Source: an uncultured Opitutia bacterium (GTDB taxonomy: Bacteria > Verrucomicrobiota > Verrucomicrobiia > Opitutales > UBA953). Taken from it: a stretch of 64,000 bases of DNA. Positions within the stretch are counted from its first letter, which is position 1; each line of letters begins with the position of its first letter. The notes under the pieces were generated by a model. That model saw only the letters and a list, made by a program, of their open reading frames with translations. It was not told the origin of the DNA and did not search any database. Location: assembly GCA_945957395.1 (NCBI GenBank), contig CAMFKE010000003.1, positions 1 to 64,000 of the forward strand, written 5' to 3'. Made by a program: the position numbers and the translations under genes. Shown piece after piece: positions 2,429 through 51,423 of the stretch.

Positions 2429-3460
2429 CTAGGACACGCCCGTGGCCGACCAGACGCGACGAGCCCGCTCGGCCAGACCGTCGCGGGCCTTGTCGACCTC
2501 GGCCATGCGGGCGCGCAGGTTCTCGTTCGCGATGGCCGAGAGGTCGTCGAGGTTGTAAAGGAACGCGCCCTCCAGCTCGCTCAGGGCGGGCTCGAAATTG
2601 CGCGGCAGGCCGAGGTCGATCAGGAACAGCGGATCGCCCCGGCGCGCGGCGAGGGCGGCGCGCACGCCGGGCAGCGTGAGCAGCGGCTCCGGCGCGGAGG
2701 CCGAGCCCACGACGATGTCGTACTTGCCGGCAAACCGCAGCGCATCGGCCAGCTCGATGGCGGCGCCGCCGAAGCTCGCGGCCAGGCGGTGGGCGTTCGC
2801 AAAGGTGCGGCTCGCCACCGTTATGTCGGTGGCTCCGCGCGAAACAAACGCGCGCACGGTCTTCTCCCCCACCTCGCCCGTGCCGAGCACGAGAACGCGA
2901 CTCTCGGAAAGTTCCCCGAAGATTCGCCGCGCCAGCTCCACGGCCACATTGCCGATACTCACCTCTCCGCGCCCGATACTGGTATGCGTGCGCGCCCAGG
3001 CCGCCGCCTGAAATGCCTTCTGAAAAACGCGGTTGAGCACAGGGCCCGTGGCGCGCCGCTCAAGCGCCTCGGCGTACGAAGCCTTCACCTGGCCGAGGAT
3101 TTCGGCCTCGCCGACCATCTGGGAATCCAGCCCCGTCGCCACCTCGAACAGATGCTCGATGGCGGCGAGACCGTGCGACACCTCGGCGTGCCGCGCGACA
3201 AACTCCGGCTCCACCTGATGCAGCGCCGCCAGCACGCCGACCTCGCACCCCACGGGCGCGTCGCCGGTGCCCACGGTGTAGAGCTCGATGCGGTTGCAGG
3301 TCGAAAGCAGCGCGCACTCCTCGATGCCCGGCAACCGGCGAATCTCGTCATGCAGACGAGCCGCCATTCCGGCCGGAATCGCAAGCCGCTCACGCACCTC
3401 CAAGGGGGCGCTCCTGTGGGTCAGTGCCAGCAGGGAAAGCCGCCGAGTGGGCGTGCTCAC
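2429..3460 (-). CDS. hemA: Glutamyl-tRNA reductase
   Basis: HemA reduces glutamyl-tRNA to glutamate-1-semialdehyde with NADPH, the first committed step of C5 tetrapyrrole synthesis. The active-site motif STCNRIELY is present with the nucleophile at Cys55, followed by the NADPH-binding LGTGEVGEKTVRAF and the PRNFEPAL segment. I place the start at the GTG at 3460, which has a good GGAGGT site six bases upstream and overlaps the stop of the preceding gene by four bases (GTGA). The predicted protein is 343 aa, against roughly 420 in most bacteria. It ends inside the long spinal helix, so most of the C-terminal dimerisation domain is missing. The preceding gene is a HemX/CcsA-like membrane protein. 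Confidence 0.95.
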   Translation of the reverse strand: MSTPTRRLSLLALTHRSAPLEVRERLAIPAGMAARLHDEIRRLPGIEECALLSTCNRIELYTVGTGDAPVGCEVGVLAALHQVEPEFVARHAEVSHGLAAIEHLFEVATGLDSQMVGEAEILGQVKASYAEALERRATGPVLNRVFQKAFQAAAWARTHTSIGRGEVSIGNVAVELARRIFGELSESRVLVLGTGEVGEKTVRAFVSRGATDITVASRTFANAHRLAASFGGAAIELADALRFAGKYDIVVGSASAPEPLLTLPGVRAALAARRGDPLFLIDLGLPRNFEPALSELEGAFLYNLDDLSAIANENLRARMAEVDKARDGLAERARRVWSATGVS

Positions 3461-4299
3461 GGACGCACCTCCGCAGCGGCTCCGTTCGCGGGCGCAGGCG
3501 TCCGACGCACCTCGGTCGCCGGCCAAAGGGAAAACAGGGCCAGCAGGAAAAGCGCCAGGCACGCCCTGGCCATCCCGCGCGCGCCGAGCTTTTCGCGACG
3601 CCGCAGCGCGAAGACCGCGGCGTATCCGGCCCATACGGCCGCCGCCACGACGAGCTTGAGCGTGAACGGTTCGCCGCCCTTGTTCGAGAGACCGGCGAAA
3701 CCCACCGCCAGGGAAAGCGAAAGCAACCCCAACCCGGCGCCCAGCAGCTGACCGCCCACCTGGTCGAGCTGCCTCAAAGGCGGCAGCACGGCGGACATAA
3801 AACCGGGGCGCCGCCCCGTGAGCGCCGCATGCTGCACGATGTACGCCAGCGAATTAAGCGCCAATGCGGCGAAGAAGCTGAACGCCAGCACCACGCTCGT
3901 CACATGAAAGCCCACCCACGGATCTCCCGAAATCGCACCGGAGGGGGCGCCATCCCAGCCCGTGCGGAGGAACGCCGCGCAGGAAAGCACGGCGGCGAGA
4001 CCGCAAACCAAGGCTTCGGGCAGCCTCACGCGGGAGGAAAGCCGCAGCAGGATATCCACGGCCACGACGCCCCACGCCAGCACCTGCAGGATCTCAAAAG
4101 TGTTCGCCACGGGCAATTCCGCTCGCTCCAGCCCGCGCAGGTAAATCCCGGCCGACTGCACCACGAAGCCGGCGCGCAAAAGAACCGAGCCCGTCCTGCG
4201 CCAAACCGGCGACTCGCGCCGCGCGCCGAAAAGGCAGGCGCCGAGCCCCGCGCCATAGAGGGCGCCGCATACGGCGAGCAAAGTTCGGGCATCCATCAT
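3457..4299 (-). CDS. HemX/CcsA-like cytochrome c assembly family membrane protein
   Basis: This integral membrane protein of about 280 aa has roughly eight predicted helices of the Cytochrom_C_asm (CcsA/ResC/HemX) type. CcsA proteins carry heme to the cytochrome c maturation site; HemX homologues influence HemA levels. I see no clear Trp-rich WWD heme-binding motif, which argues for the HemX side of the family, while His residues in the FHVTSVV and YIVQHAAL helices are family-like. The start is the ATG pair at 4299/4296 (MMDARTLLAV). The stop overlaps the hemA GTG, so the two are translationally coupled, matching the hemA-hemX arrangement of other bacteria. Confidence 0.8.
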   Translation of the reverse strand: MMDARTLLAVCGALYGAGLGACLFGARRESPVWRRTGSVLLRAGFVVQSAGIYLRGLERAELPVANTFEILQVLAWGVVAVDILLRLSSRVRLPEALVCGLAAVLSCAAFLRTGWDGAPSGAISGDPWVGFHVTSVVLAFSFFAALALNSLAYIVQHAALTGRRPGFMSAVLPPLRQLDQVGGQLLGAGLGLLSLSLAVGFAGLSNKGGEPFTLKLVVAAAVWAGYAAVFALRRREKLGARGMARACLALFLLALFSLWPATEVRRTPAPANGAAAEVRP

Positions 4300-4431
4300 G
4301 CCCTGCCATTCACACGCCGCGCCGACCTTGGCAAGCCGCGTCCAACAGGGCCGGAACATCCGCGCCAATCCGCAGACGGCGGAAAAACACACTTCCCCAT
4401 TCGCCGCACACGCCTTTCATCCGCCGCCCCC

Positions 4432-5709
4432 GTGAGTTCCGAGCCACAAGCGTCCAAACCAGAATCTGCCGGCGGCGAAAGCCCCGTCCGTCGCACGCGC
4501 GTGGCCTACCTGTTCACCACCTTCCCGGCGGACTCGGAAACCTTCCTTCAGCGCGAGATCAGAGCGATGCGCCGTCGGGACGACATCGCCTTCGAACTTC
4601 ACTCCATGTGGGGCGGCTCGGACGAATGGGAGGGCCTGCGCATCCGCCGCTTCCCCTTCGCCTGCGTCGCGCGAGTCCTGCTCTGGCAGCTCCCCAAGTG
4701 GGCCTGGCGCAAGCCGGCCACCCTCTCGGAAGTTTGGTCCGAATTCCTGCGCGCCCCGGCGCGCAGCCCCATGAATGTCGGCGAAAACCTCCTCGGATTC
4801 GCCTTCGCACTCGACCGCGCCGACGACTTTCTGCGCGCCAAGCCCGACCTTTTCCACGGCGTGTGGACGACCATGCCCGGCGCGGCGGCGCTTCTGCTTT
4901 CCCGCATCACCGGCGTGCCCTACTCGCTCGGCGCGCACGCCTACGACATCTTCGCGCGTGGCGGCGACTGCATCGCTCGCACGAAACTGACCAACGCGCA
5001 GTTCGTCCACAACAGCACCGCCGCCGCCCGCGACCGCGCACGCACGCTCGGCTGCCCGCCGGACCGGACCGAGCTTATCCGGCGAGGGCTCGACACGCTT
5101 CCGGCCTACCGGCCGCACCGCAAAATCGAGGCCCCCGTGAAGATTCTCACGGTCGGCAGGCTCGTCCCGAAGAAGGGGTTCCGTCGTCAGCTCAGGATTC
5201 ATCGCGCCCTGCTCGACGCCGGCATCGACATCCGAGTCACGCTGGTCGGCGAAGGCGAACTGTACGGCGAACTCGCGCAATCCATCCGCACGCTCGGGCT
5301 GGAAGGCCATGTGCGGCTCGCCGGGAAGCTCACCTACAAGGAGGTGAGCGCCCTTCACGACGAGGCGGACATCTTCATCTTCACGGGTCTCATCGCCGAC
5401 GACGGCGACCGCGACGGCCTGCCCAATGTCATCGGCGAAGCCATGGCCCACGGCGCCTCGGTCATCACGACGCCCGTCTCCGGCACCACCGAGGCCATCG
5501 AGCACGGCGTGACAGGTCAGGTCGTTGAAATCAACGACACGCAGGGGTGGGTTCGGGCCGTGCGCCGGCTTGTCGACGATCCCGGATTCACCGAGCGCAC
5601 GCGCCGTGCCGCACGCGACTGGGTGGAGTCGAACTTCTGCGCCCACGGCAACGCCGCCAAGCTGGCGCGCAACTTCCACGCCGCCGTGGCCGGAAACGAG
5701 CGCCGCTGA
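4432..5709 (+). CDS. GT4-family glycosyltransferase (WcaL-like)
   Basis: This cytoplasmic GT-B glycosyltransferase of about 425 aa probably acts in exopolysaccharide or O-antigen assembly. The N terminus VAYLFTTFPADSETFLQREI matches the acceptor domain of colanic-acid-type enzymes. The donor domain has ILTVGRLVPKKGF, LVGEGELYGELAQSI and the nucleotide-sugar site EAMAHGASVITTPVSGTTEAI with its paired glutamates. No in-frame ATG precedes the conserved N terminus, so I take the GTG at 4432; a GTG at 4501 is the alternative. It is divergent from the HemX-like gene and convergent with the gene at 5720, with only 10 bases between them. Confidence 0.85.
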   Translation: MSSEPQASKPESAGGESPVRRTRVAYLFTTFPADSETFLQREIRAMRRRDDIAFELHSMWGGSDEWEGLRIRRFPFACVARVLLWQLPKWAWRKPATLSEVWSEFLRAPARSPMNVGENLLGFAFALDRADDFLRAKPDLFHGVWTTMPGAAALLLSRITGVPYSLGAHAYDIFARGGDCIARTKLTNAQFVHNSTAAARDRARTLGCPPDRTELIRRGLDTLPAYRPHRKIEAPVKILTVGRLVPKKGFRRQLRIHRALLDAGIDIRVTLVGEGELYGELAQSIRTLGLEGHVRLAGKLTYKEVSALHDEADIFIFTGLIADDGDRDGLPNVIGEAMAHGASVITTPVSGTTEAIEHGVTGQVVEINDTQGWVRAVRRLVDDPGFTERTRRAARDWVESNFCAHGNAAKLARNFHAAVAGNERR

Positions 5710-6394: not shown

Positions 6395-7456
6395 TCAGCG
6401 AGACGCCGGCAACCCGAGAAGCCCTCTTGCGGCATCAAGGATTTCGGCGGCGGAAAAGGTCCCGCCGGCGCGTCGCCGGTAAAGAGCGGGGAACCACCGT
6501 TCGTACCACCGGGGCCGGGCGGGCGTGACCACGGCGCGCACGCTGGGCCCGCAGGGCATCCACCGGACGGGCCCGGCGCAGGGGCTCAGGTCGGGGAATA
6601 CGCAGACGGTCGGGGTGCCGAGGGCCGCGGCCAGGTGGGCGGGGCCGCTGTCTCTCGACAGGCACAGCTTGGCGGCACCCAGCAGCCGAGCGGTCGCCCC
6701 CAGCTCAAGCCTGCCCCGCAGATCGATGGCGGGAACGCTCGCGGGCCACGCGGGCTCGGTTGCCGAGGGTGTCTCGCCGACCAGCACCGCCGCATACCCG
6801 GTTTCCCGAGTCAGAGCGTACGCGACCTCCGCCCAAACCGCCACGGGCACGCGAGCCTTCGCGCCATGCGCCCCGGGGTGAACGACGAAAAACCCCTTGT
6901 CCGCAACGGCGTCGCCAAGCAGCCCGCGCCACAAGGCGTCATTGGCAACCGGGCGCACGCAGGGCTCAAACTCCGCGAGGTGCGCCGTGCGCACGCCCGG
7001 AAGAAGTCGCAGCAAATCGCGGGCGTACTCGGCCTCGTGCATGCGGCCGGACTCCTTGTCCAAACCGGAAACCGCGGTGAGCGCGCCCTTCAGGGTGCCC
7101 CGATAACCGATGCGCACCGGAGCGCCGCACATCATGGCCGCGGCATCGGTGAGGGGATGCGGGCAGAGCAGCACCACGGCGTCGGGTCCGAACGCCCGGA
7201 GTTGCGCCGCGAGCGCCGAAGGTCCGGCCGACTCGTCATAAGCGAGCAGCTTCGCCGGAAAATCCTTTCCCGAAAAGAGGGGCGCCATCGGCTTGCGCAC
7301 GACCCAAAGAATCTCGGCGCCGGGAAGCGCCCGGCGAATATCGTTCACCGCCACGGAACCGATCACGCAATCGCCGATGCGATCGGGACGGACAAGGGCG
7401 ACTCGCCGGCAGGAGGCTTCGGCGGCCGGGGGCCGGATGTCGGCAGGCGGCATCAT
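6395..7456 (-). CDS. ADP-heptose:LPS heptosyltransferase family protein (GT9)
   Basis: The protein is 353 aa with the two Rossmann-like domains of GT9. The N terminus VALVRPDRIGDCVIGS corresponds to the family's (R)TDRIGDVVL motif. The C-terminal donor domain has FFVVHPGAHGAKARVP, the RGRLELGATARLLGAAKLCL segment and SRDSGPAHLAAALGTPTVCVF, the family's D-(S/T)-GP-H signature. Such enzymes add heptose, or a related sugar, to lipid A core at the cytoplasmic face of the inner membrane. It sits among other envelope genes (glycosyltransferase, alpha-oxoamine synthase, LptF/G). The sugar donor cannot be deduced from sequence alone. Confidence 0.88.
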   Translation of the reverse strand: MMPPADIRPPAAEASCRRVALVRPDRIGDCVIGSVAVNDIRRALPGAEILWVVRKPMAPLFSGKDFPAKLLAYDESAGPSALAAQLRAFGPDAVVLLCPHPLTDAAAMMCGAPVRIGYRGTLKGALTAVSGLDKESGRMHEAEYARDLLRLLPGVRTAHLAEFEPCVRPVANDALWRGLLGDAVADKGFFVVHPGAHGAKARVPVAVWAEVAYALTRETGYAAVLVGETPSATEPAWPASVPAIDLRGRLELGATARLLGAAKLCLSRDSGPAHLAAALGTPTVCVFPDLSPCAGPVRWMPCGPSVRAVVTPARPRWYERWFPALYRRRAGGTFSAAEILDAARGLLGLPASR

Positions 7457-7491
7457 GAAATCCTTACGCCCCTCGGCTCGAACGCATGGCC

Positions 7492-8691
7492 TCAGATCCG
7501 CCTCGCCGCATAGGCGAAGGCCTCGGCGATGATTTCAAAGTCCTCGTCGGTATGCCCGGCGGAGGCGGCGGACCGGATGAGATCCTTGCCCGGAGGCACG
7601 GCGGGCGCGATGGACATGACGGTGAAGACGCCCTTCTCCATGAGGCGCTGCCAGAAGGAATACACGCGCTCCTTGGAACCAAGAACGACGGGCATGGCCG
7701 GTGTCTCGCTGCCCCAAGTGTCGAGCTTCAGGTCCTCCAGCAGCTTCTTGTAACGGCGGGTGTTGGCCCACAGGCGCTCGAGGTGCTCGGGCTCGTTGCG
7801 CAGCACATCCAACGCGGCGAGCGCGGCGGCCGCCTGCGCGGGCGGAAGGGCGGCGGAGAAAATGGTCTGCTTCGAATTTGTGCGCAGATACTCGATGCAG
7901 TCCTTCGAGCCCGCCACAAACCCGCCCACCGACGAAAGGCTCTTCGAGAAACTTCCGCACAGCAGGTCGATCTTGTCGGTCGCGTTGAAGTGCGCCGCCG
8001 TGCCGCGCCCGCCCGGCCCCATGACGCCGAAGCCGTGGGCGTCGTCCATGACGAGGAAACAGTTCCTGTCCTTGGTGACTTCGAGGATTTCCGGGATGGG
8101 AGAGATATGGCCCTCCATCGAATAGACGCCTTCAAACACCACCATCTTCGGCGTCTCCTGCTTCTCAAAGGAGAGGATCTCCTTCAGGTCGCGCGGATTG
8201 TTGTGCGCGAATCGCTCCACGCGCGCCTGGGTGAGCCCGATGCCGGCCCACAGCGAGGAGTGGCAGTTCTTGTCGGCCAGAATAAGGTCATCCTTTTGCG
8301 CGAAAGGCTGGATGGCCGACATGCACGAGAGGTAGCCGGCGGCGTGGATATGGCAGGCCTCCTTGCCCACGAAATCGGCCATGCTCTCCTCGAGCTCGGT
8401 GTGGTACGCGCGAGAGCCGTTCGAAAGACGCGCGCCGGTCGGGCTGGAGCCCCAAGTGTCCAGCGCCCGCTTGGCCGCCTCGATGACCTTCGGATGGCGC
8501 GACAGACCGAGGTAGTCGTTGCTGGCCAGCATGACCATCTCGCGTCCCTTCAGCCACACGCGCGTGCCACGCTGCTTCTCGAAAGTGTGGTAATACGGCG
8601 CGTACTTGTGACGCAGGCGCGTGGCCTCATCCTCCGCGCAGCGCTTCGCGATGGTGTTCGGGTAGGACTTTGAAAACAGGGAACTTAGCAC
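7492..8691 (-). CDS. Alpha-oxoamine synthase, serine-palmitoyltransferase-like
   Basis: This PLP-dependent enzyme condenses an amino acid with an acyl-CoA or acyl-ACP. Conserved parts include LASNDYLGLSRHPKV, TGARLSNGSRAYHTELE, the cofactor-binding DDAHGFGVMGPGGRGTAAHF and the Schiff-base lysine in GSFSKSLSSVGGF. The FSKSLSSVGGF form is closer to serine palmitoyltransferase than to BioF (GTFGKA) or Kbl (GTLGKA), so the product could be 3-ketosphinganine; this is inference. No ATG lies near the conserved N terminus. I use the GTG at 8691, while an open frame to 8862 would overlap the divergent gene. The neighbouring LptF/G and heptosyltransferase genes support a role in outer-membrane lipid. 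Confidence 0.8.
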   Translation of the reverse strand: MLSSLFSKSYPNTIAKRCAEDEATRLRHKYAPYYHTFEKQRGTRVWLKGREMVMLASNDYLGLSRHPKVIEAAKRALDTWGSSPTGARLSNGSRAYHTELEESMADFVGKEACHIHAAGYLSCMSAIQPFAQKDDLILADKNCHSSLWAGIGLTQARVERFAHNNPRDLKEILSFEKQETPKMVVFEGVYSMEGHISPIPEILEVTKDRNCFLVMDDAHGFGVMGPGGRGTAAHFNATDKIDLLCGSFSKSLSSVGGFVAGSKDCIEYLRTNSKQTIFSAALPPAQAAAALAALDVLRNEPEHLERLWANTRRYKKLLEDLKLDTWGSETPAMPVVLGSKERVYSFWQRLMEKGVFTVMSIAPAVPPGKDLIRSAASAGHTDEDFEIIAEAFAYAARRI

Positions 8692-39370: not shown

Positions 39371-39552
39371 GCCCGGAGCCGCATAGCCCGAGCGCCGACG
39401 GGGCTCGGGCCGGAGCAAAGGCGTCGCACCCCCGGGTTGCCATGACTTGGCGAAAGTGGGCATCATAAGAGGGACGAGCGCCCGTCTGCACGGCATACGC
39501 CGAGACCTCCCCGTTCATTTTGATCCGTCCCATATCCGAAATCACTCCCACC

Positions 39553-41001
39553 ATGGAAATTCTCTCCTTCATCGGCCACCTGATTCAGGGCGGGCTGGGC
39601 AACCTCGGCGCGTATCTGGCGGCGCATGTGCTGCTGTGCCTCATCCCGGCGTTTTTCATCGCCGGCGCGATGGGCTCGCTGATCCCGAAGGAGACCATCG
39701 CGCGCTTCCTCGGGCGCGACACGCCCAAGTGGATCTCTTACCCGGCGGCCGCGCTCGCCGGCTCGGTGCTCGCGGTGTGCTCGTGCACCATCCTGCCGCT
39801 GTTCGCCGGCATCCACCGCAAGGGCGCCGGGCTCGGACCCGCCGTCACCTTCCTCTTCTTCGCGCCCGCCGCAAACATCCTCGCGCTGCTCTACACCGGC
39901 AGCGTGCTCGGCCCGCAGCTCGCGTTCGCGCGCCTCGCGCTGTCGCTGGCGTTCGGCATCGGCATCGGCCTCATCATGGCGCTCATTTTCCGCCGCGATG
40001 ACTCCGAGCATGACCGCGAGACGGACGAACTGTTCTCCACCCGGGCGCGCATGAAGCCCGCCGCGCTCGCCTTCCTCATCGCGCTCTTCGTGCTCCTCCT
40101 GGTCGGCACGCTCAAGGTGCCGCCGCTTTCAGGCACCCTCGCCGCCTTCACGCTGCCCGTGCCCGCAGCCGGCGATTTCCAGGCGCTGCTCACGCGGCTC
40201 GTCCCCTTCGACCCGGCCAAGGGCGAAGAGGGCGTGAGCGTGCACGGCGCGCTGCTCATCGGCCTGCTCGGACTCCTCGGCGTCGCCGCGTGGAAAGGCC
40301 TCGAGCGCATCCTGGACGGCGCGAACCGCTGGACCGGCGCGGCGCTCGGGCTGGTCGCCGCCGCCCTGCTGTTCGCCACGCTGCGCGTGATGCCGCTCGC
40401 CGGCGGCGTGGAGGTGGCGGTGACCGGTCGCTTCGTCGCCGAGGCGCTCATGCTCGTCGTGTGCGGGTGGATACTGAAGCGAAAGCTGGAGCCCGGCGAG
40501 GTGGCGGAATTCGTGTGGGAGTCCTGGCGGTTCATCAAGCAGGTGTTCCCGCTGCTTGTCGGCGGCGTGTTCGCGGTGGGGGTGATCCGCGGGCTCATCA
40601 ACCCGGAATGGGTGAAGGCCGTGGCGGGCGAAAACTCCGTGACCGGCAACCTGGCCGGCGTGACCTTCGGCGTGTTCATGTATTTCCCGACGCTCGTGGA
40701 GGTGCCCGTCGCCAAACTGTTCCTGTCGCTGGGAATGCACCCGGGCCCGTTGCTCGCCTACCTGATGGCCGACCCCGAGCTCAGCCTGCAAAGCATCCTC
40801 GTGCTCACCGCCATCCTCGGCCGGGCCAAGACCTGGACCTATGTCGGATTCGTCGCGCTCTTCAGCGCCGTCTCCGGCCTCACCTACGGCGCCTGGGTGG
40901 ACGGCGCCGGCGTCGGCTATGTCGCCATCGGCCTCGCCGTCTTCCTCGCGGCCCTGGCGTTCGCCCTGTGGCGCGTGAGCCGGCGCACGGCCGCCGCCTG
41001 A
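39553..41001 (+). CDS. ArsP/DUF318-type permease (second, longer type)
   Basis: This 482-aa permease of the same superfamily as the first has a different subtype, with about ten to eleven helices. It has AVCSCTILPLFAGIHRKGAG (the CSC motif with a different flank), FFAPAANILALLYTGSV and, in the second half, YFPTLVEVPVAKLFLSLG. An insertion with extra helices separates the halves. Such long forms occur in ars clusters next to small thioredoxin-like proteins. The ATG at 39553 begins the first helix (MEILSFIGHLIQGG). It is 182 bases from the thioredoxin-like gene; the gap holds a GC-rich hairpin (39386-39410) without a T tract. Confidence 0.86.
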   Translation: MEILSFIGHLIQGGLGNLGAYLAAHVLLCLIPAFFIAGAMGSLIPKETIARFLGRDTPKWISYPAAALAGSVLAVCSCTILPLFAGIHRKGAGLGPAVTFLFFAPAANILALLYTGSVLGPQLAFARLALSLAFGIGIGLIMALIFRRDDSEHDRETDELFSTRARMKPAALAFLIALFVLLLVGTLKVPPLSGTLAAFTLPVPAAGDFQALLTRLVPFDPAKGEEGVSVHGALLIGLLGLLGVAAWKGLERILDGANRWTGAALGLVAAALLFATLRVMPLAGGVEVAVTGRFVAEALMLVVCGWILKRKLEPGEVAEFVWESWRFIKQVFPLLVGGVFAVGVIRGLINPEWVKAVAGENSVTGNLAGVTFGVFMYFPTLVEVPVAKLFLSLGMHPGPLLAYLMADPELSLQSILVLTAILGRAKTWTYVGFVALFSAVSGLTYGAWVDGAGVGYVAIGLAVFLAALAFALWRVSRRTAAA

Positions 41002-41465: not shown

Positions 41466-42575
41466 ATGTCCTCCGACTCCCTGACCTCCAAGCTGTCGTT
41501 CCTCGACCGCTACCTGACCTTCTGGATTTTCGCCGCCATGGCGGCCGGCCTGCTGCTGGGCAAGTTCGCCCCCGGCGTCGGCCAGGCCATCGACAGCCTG
41601 CGCATCGGCAGCACCTCCGTGCCCATCGCGCTGGGCCTCATCATCATGATGTATCCGCCGCTGGCCAAGGTGCGCCATGAGGAACTCCCGCGCGTGTTCC
41701 GCGACAAGAAGGTGCTCGCACTGTCGCTCGTGCAGAACTGGCTCGTGGGCCCGGTGCTCATGTTCGCGCTCGCGCTGTTGTGCCTGAGCGACCGCCCCGA
41801 GCTCATGCAGGGCCTCATCCTCGTGGGCCTCGCGCGCTGCATCGCCATGGTCATCGTGTGGAACGACCTCGCCAAGGGCGACGGCGCCTACTGCGCCGGA
41901 CTCGTGGCGTTCAACGCCATCTTCCAGGTGATCTTCTTCGCGCCCTTCGCGTGGTTCTTCCTGCTCGTCGCCCCGCAGTGGTTCGGCGCCGCCGGCGTGG
42001 CCGTGCAGGTGACGCCCGTCGAGATCGCGCAGGCGGTGGCGCTTTACCTGGGCGTGCCTTTCGCCGCCGGCGTGATCAGCCGCTACGCGCTGGTGCGCGC
42101 CAAGGGCCGCGAGTGGTACGAGGGCAAGTTCGTGCCGCGCATCTCGCCGCTCACGCTCATCTCGCTGCTCTTCACCATCGTCGTGATGTTCTCGCTGCAG
42201 GGTAAGGAAATCCTGGCGCGCCCCGGCGACGCCTTCCGCGTGGCGCTGCCGCTCGCGCTCTACTTCGTCATCATGTTCCTGGGCTCCTTCTGGATGTCCA
42301 AGAAGGCCGGCGCCGACTACGAGCGCTCCGCCACCCTCGCGTTCACCGCGGCCTCCAACAACTTCGAATTGGCCATCGCCGTGGCGCTCGCGACCTTCGG
42401 CATCAGCCACGGCGCGGCGTTCTCCGCCGTCATGGGCCCGCTCGTCGAGGTGCCCGCGCTCATCGGCCTCGTGACCGTCGCGCTCGTGCTGCGCAAGAAA
42501 TGGTGGCCCGCGTCCGCCGCCGCGCCAGTCGGCGTGCAGACCTGCTGCGGCTCCACGGACAACTCCGGCCGCTGA
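41466..42575 (+). CDS. acr3: Arsenite efflux transporter Acr3
   Basis: Acr3 exports arsenite through the inner membrane, driven by the proton gradient. The 369-aa protein has ten helices and the family motifs [19 protein letters not shown] with essential Cys125, the [17 protein letters not shown] discontinuous helix and [13 protein letters not shown]. It ends in an unusual hydrophilic tail [15 protein letters not shown] with a Cys pair. The ATG is abutted by CCTTTTCC. It follows arsR by 22 bases. Confidence 0.96.
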
Positions 42576-47639: not shown

Positions 47640-48140
47640 TTACTTCGACTCGGGCTTGAGCGTGGTGACGGGGCGCTCGGGGAACGAGGAGCCGCCGCGC
47701 GTCACATATTCGTGGCGCCAGTCCAGCCGCACCTTGTCGCCGGCCTTGAGCGCCTCGATGTCGCGCAGCAGCGCGGCGTCGGCCACGGGGTTGCCGCGCG
47801 CGTCGCGCACGCGGACGAAGAACTTCGTGGCGCGCGGGTCGCCGTACTCGCCGGTCTTCTCGTAGCTGCGGTAGGCGAGGATCTTGAACTCGGCGACGGA
47901 GCCGCCATGGTCGCAGCGGTCCGGGCACAGCGCGGTGCGGTGCATGCAGGGGCGCTTCACGACCCCGAGGAACTCGGCGTCGGTGGCGTGCACCGAGAGC
48001 ACCTTGCGGCTCTCGCCGGGCTTCGGCGCGGGCGCCTCGGCGGCCGGCGCGGCGGGAGCGGCGACGGCGGAGGATTCGGGAGCGGAGGAGCAGCCGGCGG
48101 CGACGGCGGCGATGAGGCAAAGCAGGGGAAGGGTTTTCAT
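47640..48140 (-). CDS. Predicted lipoprotein with Cys/His-rich motif
   Basis: This 166-aa lipoprotein has an N-terminal signal with lipobox VAAGC, an Ala/Pro linker, then a compact domain. The domain opens with VKRPCMHRTALCPDRCDHGG, four-way Cys/His spacing (C-x-H-x4-C-x3-C-x-H) that could bind a metal or form a disulfide network. It continues as a beta-rich region with FFVRVRDARGNPVADAALL and KAGDKVRLDWRHEYV. The start is the ATG at 48140. Function is unknown; periplasmic metal handling is one possibility. Confidence 0.72.
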   Translation of the reverse strand: MKTLPLLCLIAAVAAGCSSAPESSAVAAPAAPAAEAPAPKPGESRKVLSVHATDAEFLGVVKRPCMHRTALCPDRCDHGGSVAEFKILAYRSYEKTGEYGDPRATKFFVRVRDARGNPVADAALLRDIEALKAGDKVRLDWRHEYVTRGGSSFPERPVTTLKPESK

Positions 48141-48215
48141 AAGCGTTGGGTTTACGGGATTTATGACGTGGCGCACTCCCAACCCTTAGGTTTTTTTTCA
48201 AAAAAAACGACGCCC

Positions 48216-49094
48216 ATGTACGCCGACACCGTGTTGCCCCCCGAGGCCTGGCTCGCCCGCCGCGCCGCGCACGAGGCGCGCGTGCGCCCGTGGACGCAGC
48301 CGTGCCTGGCCCGCCACAACCGCGGCGAGAAACATCCGGTCTACGATTTCCTCTTCACCTACTACGGGCAGCGCCCGGGACGCCTCGCGCGATGGGAACC
48401 CGGATACGGCGCGACCCTCGCCGGCGACGCGGCGCGGGATTTCCTCGGATACGCCGGCTATGTCCTCACGGACGACGGCGTGCGCGTCGACCCCGCCGCG
48501 CTCACGCCCAAGCGGCTGGCGTTCATCGGGTGGCTGAAACGCTTCCTCACCACGGTGCGCGACCGGCCGGCGGCGTTCGGCTGCTTCGGTCTGCACGAGT
48601 GGGCGATGGTGTATCGCACCGACGACATACGCCACGCGCTGCCGCTGCGCATGCCGCCCGACGAACTGGCCCGCTTCGTGGAATCGCAGGTCATCCGCTG
48701 CTCGCACCACGACGCCTTCCGGTTCTTCACGCCCGCCGCGCGCCCGCTCAACCGGCTGCGGCCGGAGACGCGCGAATCCGTGATGGAGTACGAGCAGTGC
48801 GGCTGCCTGCACGCCAACATGGATTTGTACAAGTGGGCGTACAAGCTGCACCCCTTCTGCCCTTCCGAACTCACCGCCGACGCCTTCGAACTGGCCGTCG
48901 CCGCGCGCGAGCTCGACATGCGCGCCTCCGCCTACGACTGCACCTCGCTGGGCTTCGAGCCCGTGCGTATCGAGACCCCCGAAGGCCGCCTCCTCTACGA
49001 ATCGGAGCAGCGCGCCATCAGCGAGCGCTCGCGCCCGTTGCGCGACCGGCTCATCGCCCTGTGCGAGCGGCTTGAGAGCGCCGGTTTAGGCTGA
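48216..49094 (+). CDS. Conserved protein of the family annotated as 3-methyladenine DNA glycosylase
   Basis: This 292-aa protein is of a family best known from Actinobacteria, often labelled 3-methyladenine DNA glycosylase without published proof that I know of. Typical segments are LARHNRGEKHPVYDFLFTYY, GRLARWEPGYGATLAG, FGLHEWAMVYR and VIRCSHHDAFRFFTPAARP, with many His/Asp that look catalytic or metal-binding. The label should be treated as weak. The ATG at 48216 follows a TTTTTTTTC/AAAAAAAA stretch. It stands alone between a divergent lipoprotein gene and the HAD-GH fusion. Confidence 0.7.
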   Translation: MYADTVLPPEAWLARRAAHEARVRPWTQPCLARHNRGEKHPVYDFLFTYYGQRPGRLARWEPGYGATLAGDAARDFLGYAGYVLTDDGVRVDPAALTPKRLAFIGWLKRFLTTVRDRPAAFGCFGLHEWAMVYRTDDIRHALPLRMPPDELARFVESQVIRCSHHDAFRFFTPAARPLNRLRPETRESVMEYEQCGCLHANMDLYKWAYKLHPFCPSELTADAFELAVAARELDMRASAYDCTSLGFEPVRIETPEGRLLYESEQRAISERSRPLRDRLIALCERLESAGLG

Positions 49095-49323: not shown

Positions 49324-51423
49324 ATGAACCGCACCACTCCCGATATCCGCCTTTTCTGCTCCGACCTTGACGGCACCCTGCTGGGCAACCCCGAAGCCTC
49401 CCTTCGTTTCAAGGCGGCCTGGGAATCCCTGCCGCCGGAGACGCGCCCGCTGCTCGTCTACAACAGCGGCCGCACCGTCGGCGATGTGCGCCGCTTCGTC
49501 TCCTCCGGCCTGCTGCCCTCGCCCGACTTCATCATCGGCACCATGGGCACGCGCATCCTCGACTGCCGCGCCCAGCGCGAGATCACCGAGTTTCGCGACA
49601 CGCTGGCGGCCGGATGGGACGGCGACAAGGTGCGCGCGGTGCTCGCGGGCCAGGCCGGCGCTCAGCCGCAGACCGAGTCGCACCAGGACCCCTTCATGCT
49701 GAGCTGGTCGCTCGCCACGCCCACGCCCGAGCGCGTGCGCGAAATCGGCGCGGCGCTGCAGGCGCAGGGCCTGAGCGTGCAGGTCTTCCACTCCGAGGCT
49801 CGCGACCTGGATGTCGTGCCCACCGGCGCGGGCAAAGGCCCCTCGCTGGCCTGGCTTTGCCGGCGCCTCGGCATCGAGGGCAACCGCGTGCTCGTCTGCG
49901 GCGACTCCGGCAACGACGCCCCGATGTTCCGCATCCCCGGCGCTCGCGGCGTGATCGTGGAGAACGCGCGCCCCGAGCTGTTCGAGGCCACCGTGGACAT
50001 CCCCGTCTTCACCGCCCACCGCATCCTCGCCGACGGCGTCATCGACGGTCTGCGCGAGTTCGGCGTAATCACCGGCGAGGTGCGCGCCGAGCGCGCCGGA
50101 GGCACCGAAGCGGTGCTCACCCCGGGCGACCGCATGCTGTTCACCGGCACGCGCATGGCGTCGCTCACCGGCGACGAGAAGCAGCTGCTGTGCACCGCCT
50201 ACGAGCGCGCGCTCGACGCCGTGCGGCGCAACATCACGCCCATGGGCTTCTCCGCCTGCTCGCTCAAGGACAACGCCTTCAAGGGCACCGATGTGAACTA
50301 CCGCAGCGTCTGGGCGCGCGACGGCTCCATCACCGTCATCTCGACGCTGGACATCGACGACGCCGACATCCGCCGGGCCTGCCGCGCCACGCTGGACACG
50401 CTGCTGAAGGCGATTTCGCCCACGGGGCAGATACCGGCGAATGTGCGCATCGACGACGGCGTGCCCGACTACTCCGGCGTGGGCAACATCTGCTCCATCG
50501 ACAGCGGCCTGTGGGTGGTCATCGCCTTCTACAACTACATCGTGCGCACGCGCGACATGGCCTTCCTCGAGGAGCACGCCGACCGCCTGCAGGCGGCCAT
50601 GCTCTGGCTCTCGGCGATCGACAGCAACAACGACGGCCTGCTCGAGATTCCCGAGGCGGGCGACTGGACGGACCTGTTCGGGCGCAGCTACAATGTGCTC
50701 TATGACGAGGTGCTCTGGTACCGCGCCAATGTCTGCTTCGGGCGCCTGCTGGAGTTCCGCGGCAAGTTCGACCGCGCGGGCGATTACCTGCGCACCTCGC
50801 GGCACATCCGCTCGCGCGTGCTGGAGGTGTTCTGGCCCACCACGGGCGGCTCCGCCTCCGGCGACGCCGAGCTGCGGTTCGCGTCGCGCCAGTTCGAGCT
50901 GGGCGACGCGCGCTACCTGCTCGCCGAGATCACGCCGTTCTCCTTCAACTGGCGCTGCGACGTGTTCGGCAACGTGCTGGCCTACCTGATGAACCTGCTC
51001 GATGTGGACCGCGCGCGCACCGCCTTCCGCTTCATGTGGGGCGTGGGCGTGAACTCGCCCTTCCCGGTGGCCAACCTCTACCCGGTCGTGCAGGCCGGCG
51101 ACCCCGACTGGAAGTCGTACTACACGGTGAACCTGCTCAACCTTCCCCAGCACTACCACAACGGCGGCGTGTGGCCGTTCATCGGCGGCATGTGGGTGCG
51201 CTTCATCCACCGCCTCGGCTACCACGATGTGGCCTGCCGCGAACTGCTTCGCCTCGCGGAGCTCAACCGGCAGGGCCGCGACCAGGAGTGGGAGTTCAAC
51301 GAATGGTGCCACGGCGGCACCGGTCGCCCGATGGGCAAGGCCTTCCAGGCCTGGTCCGCCGCCTCCTTCCTCAAGGCCTGCCACGAACTCGAAACCGCTC
51401 CGGACAACTTCGGCGACGAGTGA
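49324..51423 (+). CDS. HAD phosphatase fused to a GH100-like/amylo-1,6-glucosidase-type glycosidase
   Basis: This 699-aa two-domain protein starts with a HAD-superfamily phosphatase of the sucrose-phosphate-phosphatase type (residues 1-245): catalytic Asp14/Asp16 in CSDLDGTLLGN, NSGRTVGD, and VLVCGDSGNDAPMF. Residues 275-699 form a six-hairpin glycosidase resembling GH100 neutral invertase and archaeal-type amylo-1,6-glucosidase (NYRSVWARDGSITVIST, GVGNICSIDSGLWVVIA, EFNEWCHGGTGRPMGKAF). The combination suggests dephosphorylation and cleavage of one sugar pathway's products, for example sucrose-phosphate then sucrose, or a glycosylglycerate. The actual substrate is unproven. The catalytic acids in the glycosidase half appear kept in GDWTDLFGR. 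Confidence 0.85.
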   Translation: MNRTTPDIRLFCSDLDGTLLGNPEASLRFKAAWESLPPETRPLLVYNSGRTVGDVRRFVSSGLLPSPDFIIGTMGTRILDCRAQREITEFRDTLAAGWDGDKVRAVLAGQAGAQPQTESHQDPFMLSWSLATPTPERVREIGAALQAQGLSVQVFHSEARDLDVVPTGAGKGPSLAWLCRRLGIEGNRVLVCGDSGNDAPMFRIPGARGVIVENARPELFEATVDIPVFTAHRILADGVIDGLREFGVITGEVRAERAGGTEAVLTPGDRMLFTGTRMASLTGDEKQLLCTAYERALDAVRRNITPMGFSACSLKDNAFKGTDVNYRSVWARDGSITVISTLDIDDADIRRACRATLDTLLKAISPTGQIPANVRIDDGVPDYSGVGNICSIDSGLWVVIAFYNYIVRTRDMAFLEEHADRLQAAMLWLSAIDSNNDGLLEIPEAGDWTDLFGRSYNVLYDEVLWYRANVCFGRLLEFRGKFDRAGDYLRTSRHIRSRVLEVFWPTTGGSASGDAELRFASRQFELGDARYLLAEITPFSFNWRCDVFGNVLAYLMNLLDVDRARTAFRFMWGVGVNSPFPVANLYPVVQAGDPDWKSYYTVNLLNLPQHYHNGGVWPFIGGMWVRFIHRLGYHDVACRELLRLAELNRQGRDQEWEFNEWCHGGTGRPMGKAFQAWSAASFLKACHELETAPDNFGDE

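Follow-up and report, generated by a model that had tools for sequence, protein, structure and literature searches.

An open reading frame of an uncultured Opitutia bacterium, found in a window of 64,000 nucleotides (the whole stretch of DNA analyzed here), encodes a HAD phosphatase of the sucrose-phosphatase (SPP) type joined in one chain to an invertase-like six-hairpin glycosidase, and the family to which it belongs is probably a bifunctional enzyme of sucrose turnover. The fusion is real and not a chance joining, as it recurs in 39 of 54 related loci and in 26 of 387 genomes of the phylum. In the window, the frame is free of internal stops and has the following features:

49324..51423, forward strand: fused gene for a HAD phosphatase and a six-hairpin glycosidase, 699 amino acids with an ATG start, recognized by Pfam and a structure model
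49348..50064, forward strand: HAD-IIB domain of the sucrose-phosphatase type, residues 9-247, with catalytic D14, D16, K171, D194 and D198 present
49696..49698, forward strand: codon of M125, a position occupied by lysine elsewhere in the alignment
50131..51393, forward strand: invertase-like (alpha/alpha)6 glycosidase domain, about residues 270-690, recognized by Pfam, profile alignment and structure
50671..50673, forward strand: codon of D450, which aligns with InvA Asp188, the proposed general acid (profile alignment)
51301..51303, forward strand: codon of E660, which aligns with InvA Glu414, the proposed base (profile alignment)

Pfam assigned residues 9-247 to S6PP (E 4e-54) and gave a best Glyco_hydro_100 stretch at residues 529-687 (E 7e-15), while partial stretches of the C-terminal part also matched GDE_C (E 2.5e-8) and an MGH1-like glycoside hydrolase model (E 3e-6). 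An AlphaFold2 model of the whole chain, built from 26 fusions, had a mean pLDDT of 80 and a pTM of 0.85, with pLDDT below 50 at residues 445-454, 507-540 and 581-618, active-site loops included. In this model, residues 7-250 resemble Synechocystis SPP (1s2o) and residues 280-693 resemble (alpha/alpha)6 glycosidases. Pfam and structure matches thus agree with the initial annotation, which had recognized a HAD sugar-phosphatase and a six-hairpin glycosidase in one chain. Residues D14, D16, K171, D194, D198, D393, D447, D450 and E660 are invariant among the 26 full-length fusions.

The HAD domain scored 184 bits against Pfam S6PP, well above the cut-off (20.3), and 136 bits against the NCBIfam equivalog model TIGR01485, which is below its cut-off of 183.65. 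It superimposed on Synechocystis SPP with a Z of 29.5 and an rmsd of 2.9 over 239 aligned residues, and the motif residues D14, D16, S48, K171, D194 and D198 are all intact in the window's copy. The HAD-IIB fold, the catalytic aspartates and the lysine are thus common to the fused domain and to Synechocystis SPP and the S6PP family; however, SPP is a single-domain protein, and the conserved lysine is absent from position 125 of the window's HAD domain. Based on the fold, the motifs and the partner gene, we infer that the HAD domain frees sucrose from sucrose-6F-phosphate.

The glycosidase scored 55 bits against Glyco_hydro_100 (cut-off 23.6), although its best stretch spans only profile positions 274-430 of 435. 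The domain was also modelled alone from 37 sequences. In a Foldseek search with this model, rows 1-27 were all chains of three GH100 invertases (InvA, InvB and one from Arabidopsis), and glucosylglycerate hydrolase came next. In VIA-align, 5z3a, which PMC12446779 gives as the GH15 isomaltose glucohydrolase of Kribbella, tied with the GH100 invertases at a Z of about 30, with 321 aligned residues versus 369 for the latter. Residue numbers of InvA were taken from PMC6995568, and the index of the aligned chain differs from them by an inferred offset of one. The proposed catalytic residues D393, D447, D450 and E660 occur in all 37 glycosidase rows, separate genes included; the loss of catalytic acids that the initial annotation had considered was therefore not seen, and a non-catalytic glycosidase is thought unlikely. 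The fused glycosidase has the fold, the proposed catalytic Asp and Glu, and the HNGG and GRxxGK motifs in common with the GH100 alkaline/neutral invertases (Anabaena InvA and InvB, Arabidopsis CINV). It differs from them in being only about 18-21% identical in structure searches, in its fusion to an SPP domain and in lacking the InvB Arg430 stretch, as in the profile alignment this arginine falls in a three-residue InvB insert. The lysine of GRxxGK, common to InvA and InvB, is present in 32 of 32 rows of the fusion or split-operon type and in none of five distant separate relatives.

These data also bear on an alternative in which the substrate of the glycosidase is a different alpha-glucoside (glucosylglycerate, trehalose, maltooligosaccharide or a glycogen branch) and the enzyme is only co-regulated with sucrose synthesis. 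The GDE_C and MGH1-like matches, the place of glucosylglycerate hydrolase directly after GH100, the GH15 tie and the missing Arg430 are all in its favor, but the invertase chains heading the Foldseek search, the distribution of the GRxxGK lysine and a fructokinase-like neighbor (see below) make it improbable. As to glucosylglycerate itself, a solute considered in the initial annotation, its pathway gained no positive support from the hydrolase model and the genes beside the fusion and was rejected on that basis, although a synthase for it may lie elsewhere in the genome: the hydrolase model NF047898 gave 24 bits against a cut-off of 550, the partner transferase is nearest to sucrose-phosphate synthase (SPS) and the neighboring kinase is fructokinase-like. 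Glucosylglycerate and mannosylglycerate hydrolases (5ohc, 4wva) have the same fold as the fused glycosidase, although they match it more weakly and act on another acceptor, and no gene of such a pathway was among the annotated neighbor clusters. We therefore favor sucrose as the substrate and infer that the glycosidase cleaves it to glucose and fructose as an inverting (alpha/alpha)6 enzyme, a relative of the GH100 invertases but not one of them.

Separate glycosidases were also seen in Paenibacillus and Chloroflexi (L046, L048, L050 and L054, also L047 and L056), most of them near frames that cluster with permeases. Among the five distant separate glycosidases, four lie near frames clustering with ABC permeases; for L046 and L054, Pfam confirmed this assignment. 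Relatives on Deinococcus plasmids are annotated as GH100 family proteins. Neither these nor the distant separate relatives (L046-L048, L050, L054 and L056) indicate a substrate.

A synthase gene accompanies the fusion in most loci. Either a GT4 transferase of about 450 amino acids, referred to here as the common transferase, or an SPS is present in 35 of the 39 fusion loci; of the other four, L003 and L034 begin at the edge of a contig, and L008 and L021 do not, having about 8 and 4.9 kb, respectively, of sequence upstream. In the phylum sample, the common transferase (E up to 1e-80) was found in 24 of 387 genomes, all of which also carry the glycosidase. The corresponding P value of 1e-33, calculated with 29 glycosidase genomes (the fragment in G357 counted in), treats genomes as independent, though they are not. 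In 21 of the 24, transferase and glycosidase lie at most 2 kb apart on one contig, the exceptions being the source genome, G119 and G293. Four fusion genomes without the common transferase (G066, G243, G254 and G319) have an SPS directly adjoining the fusion, so that one or the other synthase is present in all 26 fusion genomes of the sample. Genome G143 has three transferase copies, one of them paired with a separate HAD gene whose product shares about 45% identity with the fused domain (L108, 4287-6504).

The closest solved chain to the common transferase is the SPS of T. elongatus (TeSPS, 6kih; E 8e-71), followed by MshA and then by H. orenii SPS. Nonetheless, all seven transferases tested scored below the cut-offs of both the SPS model TIGR02472 (183-217 versus 576) and the MshA model (202-234 versus 462.5). 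Substrate contacts of TeSPS are described in PMC7264703, where mutation of H158 or E331 abolished its activity. These two residues correspond to H171 and E358 of the common transferase, invariant in 14 rows; the TeSPS numbering relies on an offset of 3 worked out in this analysis. Contacts R178, R249, Q51, P332 and E339 are likewise retained, whereas R105 is replaced by Lys, and R253, A48 and L335 by Asn, Thr and Met, respectively. On the acceptor side, a glutamine is common to SPS and the transferase, while MshA has a methionine there.

In five loci (L031 and L102-L105), the partner of the fusion is an SPS that scores above the TIGR02472 cut-off in every case (597-636 versus 576). This SPS has an SPP-like C-terminal domain in which D14 is retained, whereas the D16 position holds P or L and that of D194 holds R, T, N or G. 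Therefore, no SPP-type domain other than the fused HAD domain has intact motifs at these five loci. The bifunctional bacterial SPS with a C-terminal SPP (TIGR02472/TIGR02471) is thus a partner of the fusion here, yet its own phosphatase domain lacks catalytic residues. Sucrose-6-phosphate as the shared product is best supported by this swap, in which one and the same fusion occurs with either of two synthase types, including a curated SPS.

Alternatively, the common transferase could be a mannosylfructose-phosphate synthase or a similar enzyme, with the HAD and glycosidase domains acting on a disaccharide other than sucrose. MfpsA and MfpsB resemble SPS and SPP, and a mannosylfructose-type sugar would likewise give fructose for a kinase. 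The sub-threshold SPS scores of all seven transferases and the changed TeSPS contacts fit this reading as well, and one GT4 is labelled mfpsA in a figure legend of a Pontiella study. Yet the five loci whose SPS exceeds the curated cut-off, the rank of SPS as the nearest solved structure and the action of the nearest glycosidase folds on glucosides all speak against it, and we regard it as quite improbable compared with a sucrose pathway.

Further neighbors of the fusion are consistent with sucrose turnover. In a scan that covered five kinds of genes, a fructokinase-like PfkB kinase gene was found directly downstream in 17 of the 39 fusion loci; it was not seen in the other 22, some of which are cut by contig ends. 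Among solved chains, 2qhp, which carries the name 'Fructokinase', comes closest to this kinase (E 2e-43), and although the kinase scores below every NCBIfam cut-off, fructokinase was the top model for three of five sequences. A gene for an MscS-type channel lies near 11 of the 39 loci. The pathway would then run as follows: the neighboring SPS-like transferase would convert nucleotide glucose and fructose-6-phosphate to sucrose-6F-phosphate, from which the HAD domain would release sucrose; the glycosidase domain would split sucrose into glucose and fructose; and, where present, the fructokinase would return fructose to fructose-6-phosphate, closing the cycle. The frequent MscS gene suggests that sucrose may serve as an osmolyte, and we speculate that some control, perhaps salt, might set which activity dominates. 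The data themselves comprise gene content, gene order, conservation and predicted fold, from which the reactions, the osmotic role and any switch are deduced. More tentatively, one might envisage a chain with opposed sucrose-releasing and sucrose-destroying halves, the latter representing a sucrase family apart from GH100, GH32, GH13 and GH68; an osmotic or ionic switch would decide which half is active, and the chain, in combination with synthase, fructokinase and MscS channel, would form a self-contained osmolyte valve.

The 39 loci in which a single frame holds both HAD and glycosidase sequence include L034, in which the HAD part is cut by a contig end, and L043, which is broken by a frameshift; they came from a search that returned 54 loci. 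They belong mostly to Verrucomicrobiota, with representatives in Chloroflexota (L028, L032) and Bacteroidota (L030, L033) and single metagenome-assembled genomes (MAGs) labelled Planctomyces (L023), Acidobacteria (L024) and Blastochloris (L034), although MAG labels may be wrong. In the sample of 387 genomes, 26 have a full-length fusion, two a separate glycosidase (G178, G251) and one a fragment (G357), and none of the six other genomes of the source genome's own family in this sample gave a match. The searches of the phylum scored few candidates per genome (up to two in one search and up to four in another) and may have overlooked additional or more distant copies, and the named loci (L) and genomes (G) may share organisms. 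Genome G277 has a separate HAD gene (41%) and no glycosidase seen among the few candidates scored per genome.

The two domains also occur apart. Three Planctomycete MAGs (L038, L040 and L042) and L037, whose MAG bears a Nealsonbacteria label, encode glycosidase, SPP and transferase in separate genes that neighbor one another. At the L040 locus, a fructokinase-like gene stands between the separate pathway genes. In L039, glycosidase and transferase are accompanied by a HAD match that is weak and extends past the contig end. In L107, SPP, transferase and glycosidase follow one another as three consecutive genes on one strand, and the order in L106 is identical; separate genes of this type are found in two genomes of the source genome's class. 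Separate genes in relatives had been named as a possible objection if their functions were unrelated, but those found adjoin the same pathway genes. The separate Planctomycete SPP of L042 (9974-10762, reverse strand) has Asn at the position of D194 and is possibly impaired. Within a single pathway, the family documents fusion, splitting and the exchange of partners.

The copy in the window differs from this general picture. No synthase is adjacent to the fusion in the 64-kb window; the transferase ortholog of the source genome, which has seven GT4 places, lies on another contig (L057, 8230-9597, reverse strand), far inside it, and overlaps a separate SPP gene (7445-8260, reverse strand). This transferase has the longest end branch of a 40-row tree (1.1 versus a median of 0.28). 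No close relative of the fructokinase-like protein was found in the genome (best E 5e-4), and its weak PfkB-like places L098 and L099 match no NCBIfam family at E 1e-10. Moreover, at 12 sites the fusion has a residue unlike that of at least 23 of the 25 others; 11 of these sites are in the HAD domain and include K125M, G73T, V74M and Y156H. Position 125 is Met in the window but Lys in all 25 other fusions; in an alignment of 22 rows, the remaining 21, including the source genome's own separate SPP, likewise have Lys.

For this copy alone, and compatibly with the other readings, the HAD domain might be inactive on sucrose-6-phosphate and only the glycosidase used. K125M with ten further changes at conserved sites and the separate SPP beside the relocated synthase point in this direction; on the other hand, the frame is intact, all five HAD catalytic residues are present and overall HAD divergence is barely raised, and we consider such inactivity rather unlikely. 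The ratio of HAD to glycosidase non-identity is 1.84 for the window's fusion versus 1.58-1.80 for eight fusions of the Opitutaceae type, so the domain is not simply decaying; general decay is unsupported, although the site changes are real. Since the HAD tree has many weak forks and long branches, we claim no origin for either the window's HAD domain or the separate SPP. In the source genome, the fused chain may serve mainly to cleave sucrose, or its phosphatase may have come to act on another substrate. The initial annotation had predicted a coupled two-step disaccharide pathway, with a synthase to be sought in the genome. The pathway is borne out in relatives, where the fusion adjoins an SPS-like transferase gene and, in many cases, a fructokinase-like one, and a transferase ortholog does exist in the source genome; coupling within the window's own chain, in turn, is uncertain, because the synthase lies elsewhere with its own SPP and HAD sites are altered.

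Elsewhere in the window, a gene for an ArsP-type permease (39520-41001, forward strand) is followed by one for an SBF-family, ACR3-like transporter (41466-42575, forward strand), possibly an arsenic resistance cluster. A frame of 761 amino acids (3424-5709, forward strand) has a GT4 domain in its C-terminal half only, its first approximately 440 residues giving no Pfam match at E 0.001. The same holds for the frame just upstream of the fusion (47712-49094, forward strand), whose start is uncertain.

We found no description of such an SPP-glycosidase fusion in the literature searched, a scope outside which most subscription papers lie. A comparable arrangement is the spsA-sppA-frkA-amsA operon of Synechococcus PCC7002, reported in PMC11046441, which likewise brings together a synthase, a phosphatase, a fructokinase and a sucrose-consuming enzyme. 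That operon, however, consists of separate genes, and amylosucrase consumes the sucrose, whereas here an invertase-like domain is fused to the phosphatase. The fusion glycosidase is a candidate for a sucrase that lies beyond the invertase families defined so far. If the proposed function is true, Verrucomicrobiota and some other phyla would possess a complete unit for making and recycling sucrose, in which one fused enzyme would hold opposed activities under testable control.
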